28,450 nt of DNA from a virus, in IMG/VR virus record IMGVR_UViG_3300022929_000145, positions 1 to 28,450 of that record; one strand, given 5' to 3'. The notes beneath the pieces were generated by a model. The model saw only the letters and a program-made list of their open reading frames with translations, was not told where the DNA came from and ran no database searches. Below are positions 8,236 to 26,294 of this stretch, piece after piece. Both the position numbers and the translations under genes were made by a program. How positions within the stretch are numbered: the first letter of the stretch is position 1; every line of letters starts with the position of its first letter.

Positions 8236-10082
8236 GCGCGTTAGAAGACAGTTTAAGAGCAGTATATAAATTACCACAAAGAGAAACGGGTGCCGTCATT
8301 AACCAGGCAGAAGTTAGAAACCGACTCGAAAGAATGGGTGAAACAGGGGCAGTGATTCCCGATAATGAAATGGAAGTTATGCAACGATTCATGGAAAACC
8401 CGGCTTTGGGTGATATGAGAAGAGAAACGGGTGCTGTAATAAACGAGGCAGAATTTACACAAGAAGATCAAGAGACATTAGATAGATTGCTCAAACAAGA
8501 GGCAGCGATGGAGTCCGCTCCTCTGGGCCCGTTAGCTCAGGAGCTAAGAGCGCAAGGTTTAGAAGAAGATACTGAACTTGCTCACGTTCGTCTCGGTGAA
8601 GTTATCTTACCTCCTGAGTTTTTGGACGACGACAAATTTGCTACGGCAGTAGAAAATAAATTTAAAGCAGAGGGCATTAACCCGGAAGAAGCGGTAGTTG
8701 GTGGTATCGGCACACTTAATCCTGGCACCGGATTACAACAGTTTTTCCTCAAGAAGCTCGCTAAAGGTTTAAAAAAGGTGGTTAAGAAGGTAGCGCCTTA
8801 TGCCGGTTTGATCGCAGCTCCATTCACTGGTGGTGCCTCAGCAGCCTTAATAGGTGGTATTGGAGGAGCTATAGGTGGTGGCGGAATCAAAGGTGCACTG
8901 AAAGGTGCGGCCCTGGGTGGCGCTGGATCTGCTTTGTTTGGTGGCGCGGGCGGTGCTGGTGGCGGTATAAGCAAGTTTTTTAATCCAGCAAAAGGTAGCA
9001 CGGGAATCTTTGGTGGACAACTTGGCCCCAACATTAGAAGTGGTATTGGTGGTTTATTTAAAACTCCAGACTTTAACCCCGCTTCTGGTCAAATTTCTGG
9101 TGGCGGTATTTTTGGTAGAGCAAAAGAATTTATATTACCTGGACAAGACCAAAGAGGATTGTTTTCAAATCTTTTTGGTGCTGGTGCACCGCAACAATCT
9201 GTTGATGATATAGCTAATAATGTACCTGGAGCAAAAACCAGAGTAGAGAGATTAAGAGCAGAAGGACTTTCTGATGCAGAAATTATGAAAGACTTACAGT
9301 TTTCTGGTTATGCCCCAACTTCCCGACCAGGCGTTCTCAGTGGTTTAATTAGTGGTGGCGGTGCTGACGGCGTAGGCAACTTCGGACGTTTAGGTGATTT
9401 TTTAGGTGGAGCTGGCGGAGCTGGCGTAGCTGGAGGAGGCGGAGGCGGCTTTGGCAACTTTGCTAAAATGGCTGGTATCGGAGCTTTATCTGCTGGTTTA
9501 GGTAAGTTAGCTTATGAAGACGCACAAAAACAAAAAGGCGTGGCTTTGACACCATTAACAACCATGAGTCCTACAGGCAGATACAATATAGAAGCTGAGA
9601 TAGCCAGAAGAATGGGACAAGCACGACCTAACCCGGTTGAGTTTGGTTTATTGCCAGAAGGCACTTTGCCTCAGTTATCTGGCGGACAACCAAGACAAGC
9701 GGCTTACGGCGGTGCTGTAGAAGATCTTACAGGCGGTATGGCTAGAGGTATGATGCGCGGAGGAGGAGTTATGGCCTTTGCACAAGGCGGAGCCGTAGCC
9801 ATGCAAGAAGGCGGAGAAATGGATCCGAGCCAGTTTCCTAGAATGGATGGCGACATAAATGGTCCAGGGACAGAACAAAGTGACGATATACCGGCTATGC
9901 TATCAGATGGCGAGTTTGTTATGACAGCAAGAGCAGTTAGGGGCGCCGGTTCTTATGAAATGAAAACAGAACCAGGTGGAATCATTAATTTAGTACCAAG
10001 TTTAGAAGAGGACAGGGAGAGAGGCATGGACGTTATGTATAAGGTCATGGACACCTTTAGCGGCCAAGCCAATCCCTCATAA
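8232..10082 (+). CDS. Gly-rich probable ejection/internal virion protein with three ETGAVI motifs
   Basis: The 616-residue protein has three copies of an ETGAVI(N/P) motif at residues 18, 37 and 65 (two as RETGAVIN), each followed by an acidic helix. Then comes TELAHVRLGEVILPPEFL (about 116-133) and LKKLAKGLKKVVKKVAPYAG, a basic amphipathic helix. A glycine-zipper stretch (GGIGGAIGGGG, near residue 212) and two further Gly-rich blocks follow. A C-terminal SDDIPAMLSDGEFVMTARAV motif lies near residue 547. These segments recur in uncharacterised marine phage proteins. Amphipathic and glycine-zipper segments fit a protein that inserts in the host envelope during DNA ejection, which is inference. 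Confidence 0.6.
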   Translation: MSALEDSLRAVYKLPQRETGAVINQAEVRNRLERMGETGAVIPDNEMEVMQRFMENPALGDMRRETGAVINEAEFTQEDQETLDRLLKQEAAMESAPLGPLAQELRAQGLEEDTELAHVRLGEVILPPEFLDDDKFATAVENKFKAEGINPEEAVVGGIGTLNPGTGLQQFFLKKLAKGLKKVVKKVAPYAGLIAAPFTGGASAALIGGIGGAIGGGGIKGALKGAALGGAGSALFGGAGGAGGGISKFFNPAKGSTGIFGGQLGPNIRSGIGGLFKTPDFNPASGQISGGGIFGRAKEFILPGQDQRGLFSNLFGAGAPQQSVDDIANNVPGAKTRVERLRAEGLSDAEIMKDLQFSGYAPTSRPGVLSGLISGGGADGVGNFGRLGDFLGGAGGAGVAGGGGGGFGNFAKMAGIGALSAGLGKLAYEDAQKQKGVALTPLTTMSPTGRYNIEAEIARRMGQARPNPVEFGLLPEGTLPQLSGGQPRQAAYGGAVEDLTGGMARGMMRGGGVMAFAQGGAVAMQEGGEMDPSQFPRMDGDINGPGTEQSDDIPAMLSDGEFVMTARAVRGAGSYEMKTEPGGIINLVPSLEEDRERGMDVMYKVMDTFSGQANPS

Positions 10083-16102: not shown

Positions 16103-16354
16103 ATGGCCAGGGACTACGCCAAGGAGTATGCCAACTATCACTCCAGGCCGGAACAAATCAAAAAGAGATCTTCCAGGAATAAAGCCAGGCGTTTAGCTAT
16201 TAAGATAGGCAAAGCCAAGAAAGGCGATGGCAAGGATATACACCACAAAGACGGCAACCCAATGAACAATAGTCGTGGTAATCTCAAATCAATGGCTAAA
16301 AGCAAGAATAGATCTTTTGCTAGGACCAGGACGGCCAGGAAGAAGAGATCTTAG
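16103..16354 (+). CDS. Small basic HNH-like protein
   Basis: This 83-residue, highly basic protein contains DIHHKDGNPMNNSRGNLKSM (residues 45-64). The His-His pair (47-48), the DGNPxNN segment and Asn60 match the core of HNH nucleases in short phage proteins. It lacks the Cys pairs of zinc-bound HNH domains, so activity is uncertain. It starts two bases after the ejection gene and ends in a stop that overlaps the stop of the convergent gene at 16351. In many phages HNH proteins assist packaging, but here the terminase gene is 9 kb away. Confidence 0.6.
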   Translation: MARDYAKEYANYHSRPEQIKKRSSRNKARRLAIKIGKAKKGDGKDIHHKDGNPMNNSRGNLKSMAKSKNRSFARTRTARKKRS

Positions 16355-16593
16355 CTTTCTGATTCGGTGGCGCGAATTATGGCCCCTACAACGTCGTAAT
16401 CGAGCTCATAACCCATATAGGTATCTCCGCCTACATTCACCTCTATATTGCGCGATATGAGCCTCATAAGCGCTGCTTGTTGGTGTAGCGTAAGACGGCT
16501 ATAGAGATCTATAACCTCTTGTGCTTCTAGCACAGGTTTGTAGGACTGAGGTACAGACTTCTTTTTCGGTTTGATCTTATTAAACAAGTTCAT
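16351..16593 (-). CDS. Unknown 80-residue protein downstream of a ribbon-helix-helix-like gene
   Basis: The protein has a basic N-terminus (FNKIKPKKKS), a helical centre (AQEVIDLYSRLTLHQQAALMRLISRNIEV, about 24-52) and ends YDVVGAIIRATESES. I recognise no family. Its ATG lies inside the end of the upstream gene (overlap of 14 bases), so the two are cotranscribed and probably coupled. The stop codon overlaps that of the plus-strand HNH-like gene, making a tight tail-to-tail junction without a visible terminator. A toxin-antitoxin reading is possible from layout alone but no toxin motif is seen. Confidence 0.5.
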   Translation of the reverse strand: MNLFNKIKPKKKSVPQSYKPVLEAQEVIDLYSRLTLHQQAALMRLISRNIEVNVGGDTYMGYELDYDVVGAIIRATESES

Positions 16594-16789
16594 GGTCTTG
16601 CATGCTAACTAATCTTTTGTGCTCTCTCTGTATTAAGCGTTTGAGCTGATCGATTTTAGATCTGTCCTCCATCACGCAGATCTCAGCCAAAAGATCATAA
16701 GTAGCCGGATCTACGGCAAGACTTTTCCTTATTTCTTTCCCGTCTTTTTTTGTCTGTTCTATGTCTGATTCTGTAATCATGTGCTTCAT
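16580..16789 (-). CDS. Ribbon-helix-helix-like small regulator (candidate)
   Basis: About 69 residues from the ATG at 16789, or 66 from the in-frame ATG at 16780. A longer TTG start is possible but lies in the AT-rich promoter region. The core KSLAVDPATYDLLAEICVMEDRSKIDQLKRLIQREH has the strand-helix-turn-helix rhythm of CopG/Arc-type DNA-binding proteins. No Shine-Dalgarno precedes either ATG, so initiation may be leaderless or weak. It is divergent from the oxygenase gene at 16852 with a palindromic AT-rich spacer between, suggesting autoregulation and control of that gene. Assignment is by pattern only. Confidence 0.5.
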   Translation of the reverse strand: MKHMITESDIEQTKKDGKEIRKSLAVDPATYDLLAEICVMEDRSKIDQLKRLIQREHKRLVSMQDHELV

Positions 16790-16822
16790 TCTATAAAATT
16801 TAGCAGAAATATACAAATAAAT

Positions 16823-16845
16823 ATTAATATTAATCTGATATACTG
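16823..16845 (+). promoter_or_regulatory. Extended -10 promoter with adjoining AT palindrome
   Basis: ATTAATATTAAT (16823-16834) is a perfect 12-base palindrome. TGATATACTG (16836-16845) follows directly and contains an extended -10 (TG-A-TATACT). TATACT ends seven bases before the ATG at 16852, so the transcript should begin at or next to the start codon. No -35 match is seen. The palindrome sits where an operator for the divergent ribbon-helix-helix-like gene would be expected. Confidence 0.5.
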
Positions 16846-16851
16846 TTGGCC

Positions 16852-17565
16852 ATGTATAAGGTCAAAAATTATTTACTCAGCATGCAATCGCACTGGATGA
16901 TTAATCATACGACCTACCAGGCTGTCCAGGACTCGGTTCCAGAGATTATCAAATACAAAGCCAGCGAGGGTGTGGATGATATGGGGAAAACTCCAATACA
17001 TGATGTGATTAAAAGGATCCACCCGGACATCTATCGAGTGCCGTTGTTTCGTAGAAAGTTTTGCAAGATGTTGATGAAAGAGATCGAACACATGCAGAAA
17101 GAAGTCGGGTTTGAACCTAACTCCGATGAAGACGAGCTCAGACAAATCCCTGAGATTGTTTTGCGTGAACACGCGCCAGAGCTCTATCGCAGTATGTGGT
17201 TCGTGGTCCAGACTGTACTCAATCCGATCTTCAATGCGGTGTGGCAACGTGATTGTAAGGATCCGGCATCGATACAGATAGCCAACTACAACCTCAAGGA
17301 TAAGCAACAAGGATCCTGGCACCACGACGACAGCGCAGATATATCTGTTGTGGTTCCTTTGAATACTGGCAAGTATGAAGGCGGTGGAACCGCGTTTCAT
17401 AACTATGGAGAGATAGCGCCATTGCCCACAGGCCATGCACTGTTTTTCCCCAGCTTTACCAATCTACACAAAGGCTTACCGGTCCAATCTGGAGATCGTT
17501 ACCTTCTGGTTTTCTGGCTAAATGACGCCAAAAGAATAGTCGATTTATACCAGGAAATAGTCTAA
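16852..17565 (+). CDS. 2-oxoglutarate/Fe(II)-dependent oxygenase (first of three)
   Basis: The protein has 237 residues from the ATG at 16852 (an in-frame TTG at 16846 overlaps the promoter). The C-terminal double-stranded beta-helix shows W156-H157-H158-D159 (HxD iron ligands), GGGTAFHNYG, LFFPS, the distal His206 in NLHKG and Arg216 in GDRYLLVFWL for 2-oxoglutarate binding. This is the complete facial triad of prolyl/lysyl-hydroxylase-like enzymes, common in marine phages. The N-terminal 130 residues are helical and do not match a domain I know. Its substrate is unknown and could be protein or nucleic acid. It begins the plus-strand unit that leads to the small-gene array, although a second promoter lies between. 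Confidence 0.85.
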   Translation: MYKVKNYLLSMQSHWMINHTTYQAVQDSVPEIIKYKASEGVDDMGKTPIHDVIKRIHPDIYRVPLFRRKFCKMLMKEIEHMQKEVGFEPNSDEDELRQIPEIVLREHAPELYRSMWFVVQTVLNPIFNAVWQRDCKDPASIQIANYNLKDKQQGSWHHDDSADISVVVPLNTGKYEGGGTAFHNYGEIAPLPTGHALFFPSFTNLHKGLPVQSGDRYLLVFWLNDAKRIVDLYQEIV

Positions 17566-17583
17566 AAATATCCTCTATAAATA

Positions 17584-17613
17584 GTTGCACATAGTTGCAA
17601 CTTTTGATAATAT
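17584..17613 (+). promoter_or_regulatory. Sigma-70-like promoter with overlapping dyad
   Basis: TTGCAC (17585-17590) and TAATAT (17608-17613) are separated by 17 bases, which fits a housekeeping-type promoter about 40 bases before the Shine-Dalgarno of the 37-residue gene. GTTGCA (17584-17589) and TGCAAC (17596-17601) form an inverted repeat with a six-base spacer across the -35 region, so it may be an operator. Seventeen bases of this site (17583-17599) recur in inverted orientation at 25654-25670. Confidence 0.55.
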
Positions 17614-17655
17614 AGTCATGTGAGACATGTTATTAAAAACCAAAAAGGAGGAGAA

Positions 17656-17769
17656 ATGATAAGAGTGTTAAACGTCCTGGAGCATTGGGCCTTGCCCGTT
17701 GCGTTGTTCAATATGGCTATGTTCTTGTTTGCGGTTGACGCAATCATCAAATTATTGGAGGTGGTGTAG
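17656..17769 (+). CDS. 37-residue single-span membrane protein
   Basis: The ATG has a near-perfect Shine-Dalgarno (AAGGAGGAG) four bases upstream. The protein reads MIRVLNVLEHWALPVALFNM and continues with hydrophobic MFLFAVDAIIKLLEVV, so one membrane span covers roughly residues 12-33. It is the first gene of the small-gene array. Its last codons contain the Shine-Dalgarno of the next gene, whose GTG start shares one base with this stop. The function is unknown. Its strong start signal, not its length, is the main evidence that it is real. Confidence 0.6.
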   Translation: MIRVLNVLEHWALPVALFNMAMFLFAVDAIIKLLEVV

Positions 17770-18113
17770 TGACTTTGGGTAACTGTTACGAAAACACTTT
17801 GAAAAAGTTTTTGACTCTTGGATGCACCGGCATCAAAGATCTTAAAATCGCTCATGGCCATGTGACCGGGCAAGCTGGTTACGTTGACGGCAAGAAGTAT
17901 GGACATGCCTGGTTAGAAATCGATGGGGAGACTTGTTTGGATGCTGAGACAGGTTATGAAATGGACAAAAAAACATTTTATGCTCTTGGCAAAATCAAGC
18001 CAGAAGAAGTCTATCTTTACGACAGAGCAGAGATCAGCAAGTGGGTAAACAAGATTGGTACTTATGGCCCATGGGAACTTGAATTAACAGATTTTGAAAA
18101 GGAGGTAATGTAA
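17769..18113 (+). CDS. Papain-like (NlpC/transglutaminase-type) fold candidate
   Basis: This 114-residue protein starts at GTG, supported by GGAGG eight bases upstream. It shows Cys6 (GNCYEN, start of a helix), His46 in KYGHAWLEID and Asp58 in TCLDAETG. This is the order and context of a Cys-His-Asp triad in transglutaminase/NlpC-like folds, where the His-Ala-Trp strand is typical. If active it could be an amidase or protease acting on a host target, but the short length and lack of a transport signal leave this open. It ends in EKEVM, with the junction repeat encoding the next start. Confidence 0.5.
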   Translation: MTLGNCYENTLKKFLTLGCTGIKDLKIAHGHVTGQAGYVDGKKYGHAWLEIDGETCLDAETGYEMDKKTFYALGKIKPEEVYLYDRAEISKWVNKIGTYGPWELELTDFEKEVM

Positions 18114-18346
18114 TGGCAGATATTATGGGTAACAAAACTAAATTAGTTTGCAGAGAGACAGGAGCCGATGTGAATGTCGGTGACAAAAGAGATTGTCACA
18201 ATGAGGACGAACCAGTCGTAGTTACTGGACACTGTGCCAGGACCGGCAGAGTTTTCTTTGAGTTAGCTAACGGCTACAACGTAAGGACTGAGGGCGGTAT
18301 GTTCCCCAGTGTGATTGGTACAAAAATTGTTAAGGAGGTGGTGTAA
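18113..18346 (+). CDS. Unknown 77-residue protein of the small-gene array
   Basis: I do not recognise this protein. It has three Cys (residues 13, 23 and 36) in KLVCRETGADV, KRDCHNEDE and GHCARTGRVFF, which may form a metal site. It is short of hydrophobic stretches, and ends TKIVKEVV. The start is TAATG-coupled and its Shine-Dalgarno (AAGGAGG) lies inside the previous gene. Both junctions carry the recurring 15-base sequence described as the intercistronic repeat. Confidence 0.6.
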   Translation: MADIMGNKTKLVCRETGADVNVGDKRDCHNEDEPVVVTGHCARTGRVFFELANGYNVRTEGGMFPSVIGTKIVKEVV

Positions 18347-18606
18347 TGGCTTACAAAGATTATACAAAAGAGCAACTTATTAAAAAATTTGGTAAGGGCA
18401 ACAAACAGATTCAAGTCTACAAAAAATATGACTATTGCAATCAAGAATATACTTATGAGGTAAGAAGTGTAAAAAACAAACCCCATGAAAATCACCAAAC
18501 AGTTTGGGAAATATTGACTGACGGAATTTGTTGGACCAAGGATGAATATGACGATTATGTTCACATTCAAAAATACAAAGATGTTTATGAAAAGGAGGTA
18601 GTGTAA
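18346..18606 (+). CDS. Unknown 86-residue protein of the small-gene array
   Basis: I do not recognise a family. The protein is rich in Lys, Tyr and Asp, with YTKEQLIKKFGKGNKQIQVYKKYDYCNQEYTYEV in the first 40 residues and a DEYDDYVHIQKYKDVYEKEVV C-terminus. It is likely a small soluble alpha/beta protein. Start and stop both overlap with the junction sequence; its last three residues before the stop (EVV) are the shared ending. AAGGAGG precedes the ATG at the right distance. Confidence 0.6.
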   Translation: MAYKDYTKEQLIKKFGKGNKQIQVYKKYDYCNQEYTYEVRSVKNKPHENHQTVWEILTDGICWTKDEYDDYVHIQKYKDVYEKEVV

Positions 18607-18998
18607 TGTTAGATGCTTATATAGAAAAAATGTTGAAGGCTGCTAAGAAGGCAGCACAAAAATCTTACGATGAATGTGTGCCAACGCCGGTGGCTTTCCA
18701 GGTGGCTGATTCCTTGAACGGCGAGTTTGATAGGAACAAGCCATACAAAGTTGACAAGGAGGGCCACTGTGGTTGGGCCGGCCTGAAGGTTGCCGGTCCT
18801 GGTAAAAATATGATCTCTAAGGAGTTGAAGGCCAAAGGTTTGATTGACACTTTAGGATCTAACTACGGCTGGGATATGAGAGTCGTGTGCAACAAGTGGA
18901 GCCAAAGCGCAGACAGGGCGGAAGCTGCTGCCATTGCTTACGGCAAAGTGTTAAAAAAATATGGTGTGCCCAACAGAGTGGTCACTAGATTAACTTAG
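18606..18998 (+). CDS. Unknown 130-residue protein of the small-gene array
   Basis: The protein begins with an amphipathic helix (YIEKMLKAAKKAAQKSYDE, about 4-22). A Gly/Trp-containing middle follows (GHCGWAGLKVAGPG, about 53-66), then a helical SQSADRAEAAAIAYGKVLKKYG segment (about 98-119). It ends VTRLT, unlike its neighbours, so here the junction repeat is noncoding. No domain is recognised. Good Shine-Dalgarno and full codon-level openness support it as real. Confidence 0.6.
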   Translation: MLDAYIEKMLKAAKKAAQKSYDECVPTPVAFQVADSLNGEFDRNKPYKVDKEGHCGWAGLKVAGPGKNMISKELKAKGLIDTLGSNYGWDMRVVCNKWSQSADRAEAAAIAYGKVLKKYGVPNRVVTRLT

Positions 18999-19009
18999 GA
19001 GGTGGTGTA

Positions 19010-19258
19010 ATGGCCAAATATAAAGTAGGAGATAAAGTAAAACTAAACGCGGATCTTTTTGAGAACGCGATACCTGGAGTGATTGGAAAGATCGTCAACA
19101 TTTTTGATCTTAAAACCAATACTTTTGAACACGAGGCTCAAATCAATGTCGCAGTTACTTACAAAGATGAATGTGACTACGGCTACGATGTCGATTGGGG
19201 TATAGACAAGCCTATGGTTAATCCTTGGGCAGAAATAGAATTAGAGGAGGTAGTGTGA
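19010..19258 (+). CDS. SH3/KOW-like small protein of the array (82 aa)
   Basis: The sequence reads KYKVGDKVKLN, then PGVIGKIVNIFD, INVAVTYKDECDYGYDVDWG and NPWAEIELEEVV. The GDxVxL / GxIGxI / VxY / WxxIE spacing is typical of small SH3-like or KOW-like beta barrels found in many phage-encoded and ribosome-related proteins. The match is by pattern and is not strong. It starts after the TAG of the previous gene with the junction repeat in between. Its last codons (EEVV) again provide GGAGG for the next gene. Confidence 0.55.
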   Translation: MAKYKVGDKVKLNADLFENAIPGVIGKIVNIFDLKTNTFEHEAQINVAVTYKDECDYGYDVDWGIDKPMVNPWAEIELEEVV

Positions 19259-19422
19259 AAGAAGATCTTGTATTAGTAAAAGTCAAAAACAAACCGAATG
19301 AATTGAAGGCTGTTGCTCACCTGGGCAAGTATTCACAACATAAAGGTTTGTTTGACGAAGTAGTCAAAACATTAGATTGGTTAGACGAAACAAGAGAAAT
19401 TGCAGAGGATTTTGCAGATTAA
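19255..19422 (+). CDS. Unknown 55-residue protein of the array
   Basis: The start is the GTG at 19255, chosen because AGAGGAGG ends five bases before it and because the junction (GGAGGTAGTGTG) matches the array. A longer start inside the previous gene would have no Shine-Dalgarno. The protein is VKEDLVLVKVKNKPNELKAV at its start and ends TREIAEDFAD. It is small, charged and without a recognised domain. The stop TAA overlaps the following ATG. Confidence 0.5.
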   Translation: MKEDLVLVKVKNKPNELKAVAHLGKYSQHKGLFDEVVKTLDWLDETREIAEDFAD

Positions 19423-19688
19423 TGAAATATAAGAACGTAGAAATAATATCAACAAAATATAATAAAGAGGGCAGACATCTTTCTTATGATGTGACTTACA
19501 GAGTATATGGTAATGATGAAGTGGTGACAAAACCAACCTATCCAAACGCAAGTTTTGTTTATGGCGTTGGCTGGAATGGTATGGGTAAAGATACCACGGC
19601 AAAAGTTGCGATTAATTCAGATGGTTACATAGAAGACATGAAAGATGTTTTCACAAAGACTGTTTCCGGATATATAAGATTAGCTTAA
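19422..19688 (+). CDS. Unknown 88-residue protein closing the array
   Basis: The ATG at 19422 overlaps the TAA of the previous gene (TAATG). A longer start upstream would run through that gene. The protein is KYKNVEIISTKYNKEGRH followed by YDVTYRVYGNDEVV and a Gly-rich GVGWNGMGKDTTAKVAI (about 48-64). It is beta-rich without recognised family. Unlike its neighbours, no GGAGG precedes it. It ends four bases before the end of the convergent exonuclease gene, with no clear terminator between. Confidence 0.5.
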   Translation: MKYKNVEIISTKYNKEGRHLSYDVTYRVYGNDEVVTKPTYPNASFVYGVGWNGMGKDTTAKVAINSDGYIEDMKDVFTKTVSGYIRLA

Positions 19689-25020: not shown

Positions 25021-25530
25021 ATGGGAAGACCAAAGAAGCCAAAAGAGAAAATAGTAGATACCCCGGTACAGTTCGATCGGGATGAAGAACATGGCCTGAC
25101 AGAAATGCAGACCAGCTTTGTCTGGCACTATACCGAAGGTGCATGCGGTATGACCGAAGCAGCCAGGAGAGCTGGGTATGAATTTCCAAGCCAGGCCGCC
25201 AACAAGTTACTGAATGGTAAGGACTATCCGAATGTGGTTAAGGCCATCCGGATCAAACAAGACGAGCTGGCAGAGAAGTATGCGATCACTCCGCAGAAGA
25301 CCGGGACGATGTTGTGGAAGGTCATGGAGAAAGCGTACGAGAACGGACAGTTCAATGCTGCGGTTTCTGCGATCAAGGAGCTCAACCAGCTTGGCGGATT
25401 GTCAATCAATAGATCCCAGAATATCAATATCAATGCCAACCTGGAGAAGATGTCCAGGGATGATATTAAGGAGAGATTAGGCCAACTATTAGGTGCTAAC
25501 ACTTCTGACTACTCACCAAAGGACAAGTAG
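25021..25530 (+). CDS. Terminase small subunit-like protein
   Basis: This 169-residue protein begins with a basic arm (MGRPKKPKEK). LTEMQTSFVWHYTEGACGMTEAARRAGYEF (about 26-55) follows, a helix-turn-helix typical of small terminases, then AANKLLNGKDYPNVVKAI and AEKYAITPQKTGTMLWKVMEKAYENGQFNAAVSAIKELNQLGG (about 79-125). This is the arrangement in Terminase_2-type small subunits, which recognise the packaging site and load the large subunit. The large subunit does not follow here. A terminator is found 60 bases after the stop. Confidence 0.75.
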   Translation: MGRPKKPKEKIVDTPVQFDRDEEHGLTEMQTSFVWHYTEGACGMTEAARRAGYEFPSQAANKLLNGKDYPNVVKAIRIKQDELAEKYAITPQKTGTMLWKVMEKAYENGQFNAAVSAIKELNQLGGLSINRSQNININANLEKMSRDDIKERLGQLLGANTSDYSPKDK

Positions 25531-25590
25531 TGCTGGCAACTTTGTTATGGCCCTTTCTCGGCCAGGCGCCAAATATTTTGATAAAAAAAT

Positions 25591-25628
25591 AAAAAAGCTC
25601 GTAAGTTATTGATTTTACAGGCTTTTTT
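25591..25628 (+). terminator. Rho-independent terminator, probably bidirectional
   Basis: AAAAAAGC (25591-25598) pairs with GCTTTTTT (25621-25628), and GTAA with TTAC inside, leaving a loop of about ten bases. A T tract on one strand and an A tract on the other would let it act in both directions. It ends the terminase small subunit transcript. Confidence 0.65.
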
Positions 25629-25653
25629 GCTTGTATTTACATGTGTATCTTTC

Positions 25654-25681
25654 TGCAACTATGTGCAACTTGTGAGCACAA
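25654..25681. promoter_or_regulatory. Two adjoining operator-like dyads
   Basis: TGCAACTATGTGCAACT (25654-25670) is the reverse complement of 17 bases at 17583-17599. Overlapping it, TTGTGAGCACAA (25670-25681) is a perfect inverted repeat with a two-base spacer. They are in the noncoding stretch after the terminator. The rest of 25531-25874 has a pyrimidine-rich tract (25719-25750), GGGGC/GCCCC at 25711 and 25746, GCCGGC at 25766-25771 and no supported gene. Confidence 0.5.
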
Positions 25682-25874
25682 CAGTAACAGGTAACAAATT
25701 GGAGTCCCTTGGGGCCGGTTTTTTCCCTGGTTTTTCTTTTTTTTTGCCCCGCACACCCCTAGATGGCCGGCGGCGTATGCAGATGTGTATATAACTGGGT
25801 TTTACACATAAGATCACCAAAAAAAATGATTCCTTACGATTGTAATTTTGTGCAAATTTTGAGACACTCTTGCA

Positions 25875-26294
25875 ATGCCTATTAATTCCAGAAACAAAGG
25901 GGCCAAGTTTGAGCGAGACATAGCAAAGATCCTTAATGGTTTTTTCCTGGACAACGGCATAGATTACGAAACCAAACGCAACCTGGACCAATACCAACAA
26001 AAGGATCTGTGTGACCTGGACATACCCTTTCATTCTGTCGAATGTAAACACTACAAAGAAGGCGATTGGCTAAAGTCCGCCTGGTGGAACCAGGTATGCG
26101 AGAGCGCTGGCCCGAACATTCCGGTTCTTATCTTTAAATTCAACCGAAAACCCATCCGAGTCTGCGTACCGCTATATGCAATCAACCTGGACTGGCCCAG
26201 GGAAAACGACAAGATCTGCATAATGTCCATGGAGGACTGGTTAGATACCCTCAAAAAAAACTGGACAACCTATGAACAGCGACATTCTTCCTAA
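25875..26294 (+). CDS. PD-(D/E)XK nuclease, Holliday-junction-resolvase-like
   Basis: This 139-residue protein has NKGAKFERDIAKIL with Glu13, then YETKRNLDQYQQKDLCDLDI with Asp44 and Asp47, and FHSVECKHYKEGDWLKSAWWNQV with Glu56 and Lys58 in an ECK motif. This order (E, then D, then ExK) is that of the small PD-(D/E)XK resolvases used by phages to resolve branched DNA before packaging. The start is preceded by no obvious Shine-Dalgarno. The end overlaps the oxygenase gene by 23 bases. Confidence 0.75.
   Translation: MPINSRNKGAKFERDIAKILNGFFLDNGIDYETKRNLDQYQQKDLCDLDIPFHSVECKHYKEGDWLKSAWWNQVCESAGPNIPVLIFKFNRKPIRVCVPLYAINLDWPRENDKICIMSMEDWLDTLKKNWTTYEQRHSS

Follow-up and report, generated by a model that had tools for sequence, protein, structure and literature searches.

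As judged by comparison of related sequences, a 17-bp element (AGTTGCACATAGTTGCA) shared by two non-coding regions of an uncultured marine phage is a conserved, helically phased, operator-like array, in which the conserved unit is a pair of tandem TGCA boxes exactly 10 bp apart and not a dyad, and whose protein binding is putative. At the first place (site 1) the boxes lie within the predicted promoter of an exchangeable accessory-gene cassette, and at the second (site 2) they stand in inverted orientation in a conserved non-coding block past the small terminase gene. As a phage operator/promoter it is well founded and of a rather common type. The features are listed in Table 1.

The window, i.e. 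the whole stretch of DNA that was analysed, is a viral contig of 28,450 bases with 43% G+C from an uncultured marine phage group. The capsid protein, read from the relative L177, shows about 60% identity to its counterparts in the Pelagibacter phages HTVC023P and HTVC027P, and the terminase just 34% identity to that of HTVC027P. A search of cultured phages with the site-2 block retrieved no relative except for one 27-bp piece. Scanning IMG/VR for the exact 17-mer returned 56 contig stretches, and syntenic places were assigned in the relatives from the gene that precedes each site, the oxygenase gene for site 1 and the small-terminase gene for site 2. The sole match among bacterial genomes, in a Litoreibacter MAG, has no phage genes nearby and was taken as chance.

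Table 1. Features of the window (positions counted from its first base)
Feature	Position	Strand	Remarks
80-aa protein	16351..16593	-	same orientation as the RHH gene, which it overlaps; both kept in nearly all relatives
Ribbon-helix-helix (RHH) protein, 69 aa, candidate binder	16580..16789	-	adjacent to the oxygenase gene; strand RKSLAVD invariant or near-invariant
2OG-Fe(II) oxygenase gene	16846..17565	+	gene preceding site 1
Copy 1 of the 17-mer (site 1)	17583..17599	+	two AGTTGCA boxes; TGCA cores 17586-17589 and 17596-17599, 10 bp apart
Sigma-70-like promoter (predicted)	17585..17613	+	-35 TTGCAC 17585-17590 = box 1; 17-bp spacer with box 2; -10 TAATAT 17608-17613
Palindrome AGTTGCAACT	17593-17602		contains box 2 of site 1
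Conserved leader	17618..17655	+	starts ATGTGAGACAT; strong Shine-Dalgarno AGGAGG 17646-17651; ATG at 17656
Accessory cassette of small genes, function unassigned	17656..19688	+	ORFs at 17656, 17769, 18113, 18346, 18606, 19010, 19377
Small terminase subunit-like gene	25021..25530	+	phrog_51, E 2.4e-7; just below Pfam cut-off; upstream of site 2
Conserved non-coding block	25531..25874		small terminase to PDDEXK nuclease gene; kept strings GGAGTCCCT, ACACCCC, TATAACT.GGTT
Copy 2 of the 17-mer (site 2)	25654..25670	-	inverted; TGCA cores 25654-25657 and 25664-25667, 10 bp apart
Palindrome TTGTGAGCACAA	25670..25681		centre exactly 10 bp past second TGCA core of site 2

Two sites and their 10-bp register

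Both copies of the 17-mer are exact and lie in non-coding DNA, as the sequence-only reading had described, and allowing up to three mismatches in the window returned sites 1 and 2 only, with 0.09 matches expected by chance for AGTTGCACATAGTTGCA alone. The accompanying statement that chance agreement is low is too strong for an unselected repeat: of 60 dinucleotide-shuffled versions of the window, 9 (15%) contain some exact 17-mer repeat, and the match alone is thus only suggestive. The window also contains a longer, unrelated direct repeat of 18 bp at 18333 and 18997. It is the conservation of the element in relatives, and not the match itself, that excludes chance.

The dyad GTTGCA-N6-TGCAAC, which had been put forward as the symmetry of an operator, is present at 17584-17601 and deviates at two positions in the second copy. 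Near-matches to it are frequent by chance (mean of 1.54 per shuffled window), and the bases that would complete it at site 2 vary among relatives (TG, TA, TC, TT), so that this dyad, which is not kept at site 2, was rejected as the recognition unit. Because it is imperfect and variable there, the feature common to both copies is the direct repeat AGTTGCA-N3-AGTTGCA, and the dyad at site 1 is a by-product of the AAC that follows box 2.

The doubt raised with the original observation, that relatives might lack the element, was answered by dozens of related uncultured marine contigs that keep the 17-mer at both syntenic places, where most of its matches in relatives are found. At site 1 it lies on the plus strand about 20-45 nt past the oxygenase stop, and at site 2 on the minus strand about 125 nt past the terminase gene (123 bp in the window). 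Two TGCA cores exactly 10 bp apart are present in 43 of 64 site-1 regions (0.13 in shuffles) and in 41 of 69 site-2 regions (0.6 in shuffles), and the sole other spacing at site 1 is 20. Among more distant relatives, 24 of 39 still harbor the pair at spacing 10; the surrounding letters have changed (GTGCAAATACTTGCACATTTGTGCA) and the phase has not. The site-1 consensus reads AAATAGTTGCAnWTAGTTGCAACTT..-10..TATGTGRGA, with box 1 and the leader spaced 33 nt apart in 24 of 25 non-redundant relatives. At site 2 the 17-mer is kept with at most two mismatches in 40 of 70 non-redundant regions (~57%), and the mean column identity amounts to 0.80 for the 17-mer, 0.90 for the palindrome TTGTGAGCACAA and 0.71 for the whole block. 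Strict boxes at the two sites co-occur weakly (Fisher p 0.064). Direct repeats of the AAGAGAAACGGGTGC type were also seen in coding DNA, at positions 8279, 8420 and 13397 in two large late genes, where they encode a repeated ETGAVI peptide.

A constant predicted promoter before changing genes at site 1

Site 1 is a predicted promoter. The -35 box that had been noted across the first copy was recovered together with a matching -10 hexamer, the two lying within the 16-18 bp separation of sigma-70 promoters, and this layout is kept in 24 relatives. The -10 hexamer of relatives reads TAATAT, TATATT, CATTAT or TATTAT at the same position. A sigma-54 promoter was discarded by inspection, the spacing of the GG/GC element being off by one. 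The leader motif ATGTGRGA is conserved, and the same leader recurs at other promoters of the phage family. The earlier interpretation as an operator is supported for site 1 insofar as an operator-like element lies at an early-type promoter; its dyad as recognition unit is not.

The cassette genes behind this promoter differ between relatives, and the first downstream protein belongs to 24 families behind 39 unique promoter-plus-leader contexts. The presence of the same promoter before 24 protein families indicates that site 1 heads an exchangeable accessory-gene cassette. Several relatives lack both promoter and cassette, and their oxygenase gene leads straight into the exonuclease gene. Copies of this promoter also precede other small genes in the family, where they follow terminators close to the capsid gene. 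This arrangement resembles that of phage moron or accessory genes, with a constant promoter, a variable gene and, at the loci near the capsid gene, a terminator in front; it differs from morons in the reuse of the same promoter and leader at several places in this family.

The gene junctions within the cassette (18102-18116, 18334-18349, 18594-18609 and 18998-19013) have AGGAGGTRRTGTAATG in common. Stop and start codons overlap or adjoin, the Shine-Dalgarno sequence of the next gene lies within the last codons, several of the proteins end in EVV or EVM, and the same junction is found in the cassettes of relatives; it may represent a joint for gene swapping.

The non-coding block at site 2

A palindrome adjoins the second copy as previously noted, namely TTGTGAGCACAA, whose arms remain palindromic in relatives while its centre varies (AG, CT, TT); it is either a third box in the 10-bp register or the site of another factor. 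A conserved -10 hexamer was sought on both strands of site 2 and no convincing one was found: the candidates on the minus strand vary (CACATG, TACATG, TAATTA), and the plus strand has TATGTG before TTGTGAG. The claim that the element controls two regions is consequently not borne out as stated, no conserved promoter having been found on either strand of site 2. Two relatives (L102, L103) that are devoid of the site-1 cassette retain degenerate site-2 boxes, which indicates that site 2 is independent of site 1. A comparison of the block with Rfam gave no family, its predicted RNA folding does not exceed that of shuffles, and an RNA element after site 2 was rejected since this stretch folds worse than shuffles (z +1.9).

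Several further observations were made in this part of the genome. At 25601-25627, after the terminase gene, CGTAAGTTATTGATTTTACAGGCTTTT matches the unrelated Pseudoalteromonas phage J2-1 with 96% identity over 27 bp, and the block with CGTAAGTTATTGATTTTACAGGCTTTT occurs in either orientation among relatives; the region looks like a recombination core, though no integrase was found. At the start of the nuclease gene (25840-25877), a promoter-like TTGTAA-17-GACACT directly abuts CAATG and would, as a weak candidate, give a leaderless or nearly leaderless nuclease message, and TTGCAA boxes 10 bp apart recur in this start region in relatives.

A third conserved place for the boxes (site 3) is located beyond the end of the window, about 2.4-4.5 kb past site 2 in relatives, in the spacer between two divergent genes, which vary on both sides. 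In several genomes the left gene, which starts about 38 nt from the 17-mer, encodes an RHH-like protein of 57-58 aa (RelB model, narrowly missing the Pfam cut-off). The left gene is of this type in only part of the relatives; L005, the closest relative of the window that reaches site 3, has the boxes and a different left gene. Five tandem AGTTGCANNN units with a 10-bp period beside a tRNA gene were noticed in an unrelated phage group (L163, L164, L169, L170, L173 and L174) and judged to be unrelated to the element.

Candidate readers of the boxes

The likeliest reader of the boxes is a phage dimer that would bind cooperatively. A ribbon-helix-helix-like protein had been suggested as a binder, and a gene for a protein with this predicted fold is indeed encoded close to site 1, in the window as in nearly all relatives. 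Its residues R21, K22, L24, A25 and D27 are invariant and lie in the predicted strand, and the AlphaFold2 model (pLDDT 81.6) places helices 28-41 and 45-67 behind this extended strand. The best PDB matches in Foldseek are mostly RHH proteins, none of them significant by E-value, and VIA-align gives a Z of about 5-6 to many RHH chains, a value that on its own might mean a common arrangement, although nearly all rows are RHH proteins. A Pfam sequence search did not recognise the protein. The presence of a phage-encoded RHH-fold protein is a prediction. The DNA upstream of its own gene (16790-16845) is free of boxes, and the co-occurrence of element and RHH gene cannot discriminate, because the gene is universal in the family. 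For the overlapping 80-aa protein two helices and four strands are predicted and no fold match was obtained in the PDB; both proteins possibly constitute a regulator-partner or toxin-antitoxin-like pair.

We propose, with a probability of about one half, that the 17-mer represents helically phased boxes bound by a cooperative dimeric phage protein, which would repress the cassette at site 1 and anchor at site 2. The reading starts from the two sites with their conservation and 10-bp phase, the sequence features of promoter and leader, the constancy of the promoter before changing genes, and the predicted RHH fold. The 17-mer would then be a pair of neighbouring boxes with the core TGCA and the unit AGTTGCANNN, part of a helically phased array to which a phage protein may bind cooperatively as a dimer, the candidate being the RHH protein. 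The array at site 1 lies on the -35 box and spacer of the sigma-70-type promoter that reads the exchangeable cassette, so that a bound protein would keep RNA polymerase out and shut the cassette down, probably once early expression is over. The array at site 2 is extended in register by TTGTGAGCACAA within the conserved block past the small terminase gene, and a protein-DNA anchor is more likely there than the operator of its own promoter. Against this reading it has to be considered that a host regulator fits equally well, that the 17-mer at site 2 is less conserved than the adjoining TTGTGAGCACAA, and that strict boxes at the two sites co-occur weakly.

In its working the element would resemble the tandem-repeat operators that RHH proteins or Apl-type regulators use, and it is a putative member of either class. 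RHH dimers such as ParR, ParG, omega, CopG and Arc bind tandem repeats, and those of ParR are 10-bp repeats around a promoter (PMC5016525); RHH binding of the present element is putative. Tandem boxes at a fixed helical spacing, as RHH operators require, were found at both sites, but the arrays are short compared with those of the ParR type and no partition ATPase was recognised. The operators and stoperators of Cluster A mycobacteriophages likewise consist of one short element that is repeated in non-coding DNA, both at a promoter and in the gaps between genes (PMC9283540). They are, however, single 13-mers at many sites oriented with transcription, whereas the present element consists of tandem boxes at only two sites in 28 kb, and site 2 runs against the direction of its neighbouring genes.

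The most serious alternative, which we nevertheless regard as rather unlikely, is that a host protein binds the boxes, or that they are a duplicated -35 box for the host RNA polymerase, with no phage regulator involved. TTGCAC-17-TAATAT is a workable sigma-70 promoter, and an element that heads scattered accessory genes behaves like a plug-in promoter. Yet box 2 lies in the spacer, where sigma-70 does not read it, and is conserved equally with box 1, and site 2 retains the boxes without a recognisable -10 hexamer.

It is less probable still that site 2 belongs to a cos/pac or att region and that the binder is an Apl/Cox-like recombination directionality factor or a packaging accessory factor with a second role as repressor of the early promoter. 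The location of site 2, in conserved non-coding DNA behind the small terminase gene, would suit this explanation, as would the adjoining 27-bp piece with its near copy in an unrelated phage and its two orientations among relatives. The Apl protein of phage 186 (Cox/Xis-type) provides a precedent, since it binds cooperatively to direct repeats at 10-11 bp spacing in att and at early promoters (PMC7498355), and both systems combine direct repeats one helix turn apart at an early promoter with a second, non-promoter-like place. Apl operators, however, have five to seven boxes per site instead of the two or three found here, and an Apl/Xis-like fold contrasts with the RHH fold expected for the binder. 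An att site was rejected: a tyrosine integrase (PF00589) is absent from the window and from 24 related records of up to 56.8 kb, all 25 records being fragments. As to cos, related contigs run through the block without a pile-up of ends (coordinates judged by eye).

A site for a lambda CII-like activator, recognising TTGC-N6-TTGC, is very improbable. The sequence TTGC-ACATAG-TTGC is exactly present, but CII promoters have their -35 box between the two TTGC motifs, and here the intervening hexamer is just 13 bp from the -10 box, the first TTGC itself being the -35 box at 17 bp; the position relative to the -10 box is thus wrong. Chance identity or a recent functionless duplication, for which only the repeats in shuffled windows could be adduced, can be dismissed because both places are conserved in relatives with unrelated flanks and a kept 10-bp phase.

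The element can serve as a sequence tag by which accessory-gene cassettes of an uncultured marine phage group are recognised. A joint search for promoter, boxes and leader yielded the 24 families of small first-position proteins, which ordinary annotation leaves as unknown and which most probably act in host takeover or counter-defence. Were all sites read by one regulator, a simple model would follow for the timing of plug-in genes in such phages. In a bolder version, which we consider improbable, a single RHH protein ties all plug-in cassettes of a lytic marine phage family to the terminase/packaging region. The shared promoter, operator and leader would then allow any small gene to be recombined in, and a single switch would silence the host-takeover genes as packaging begins.
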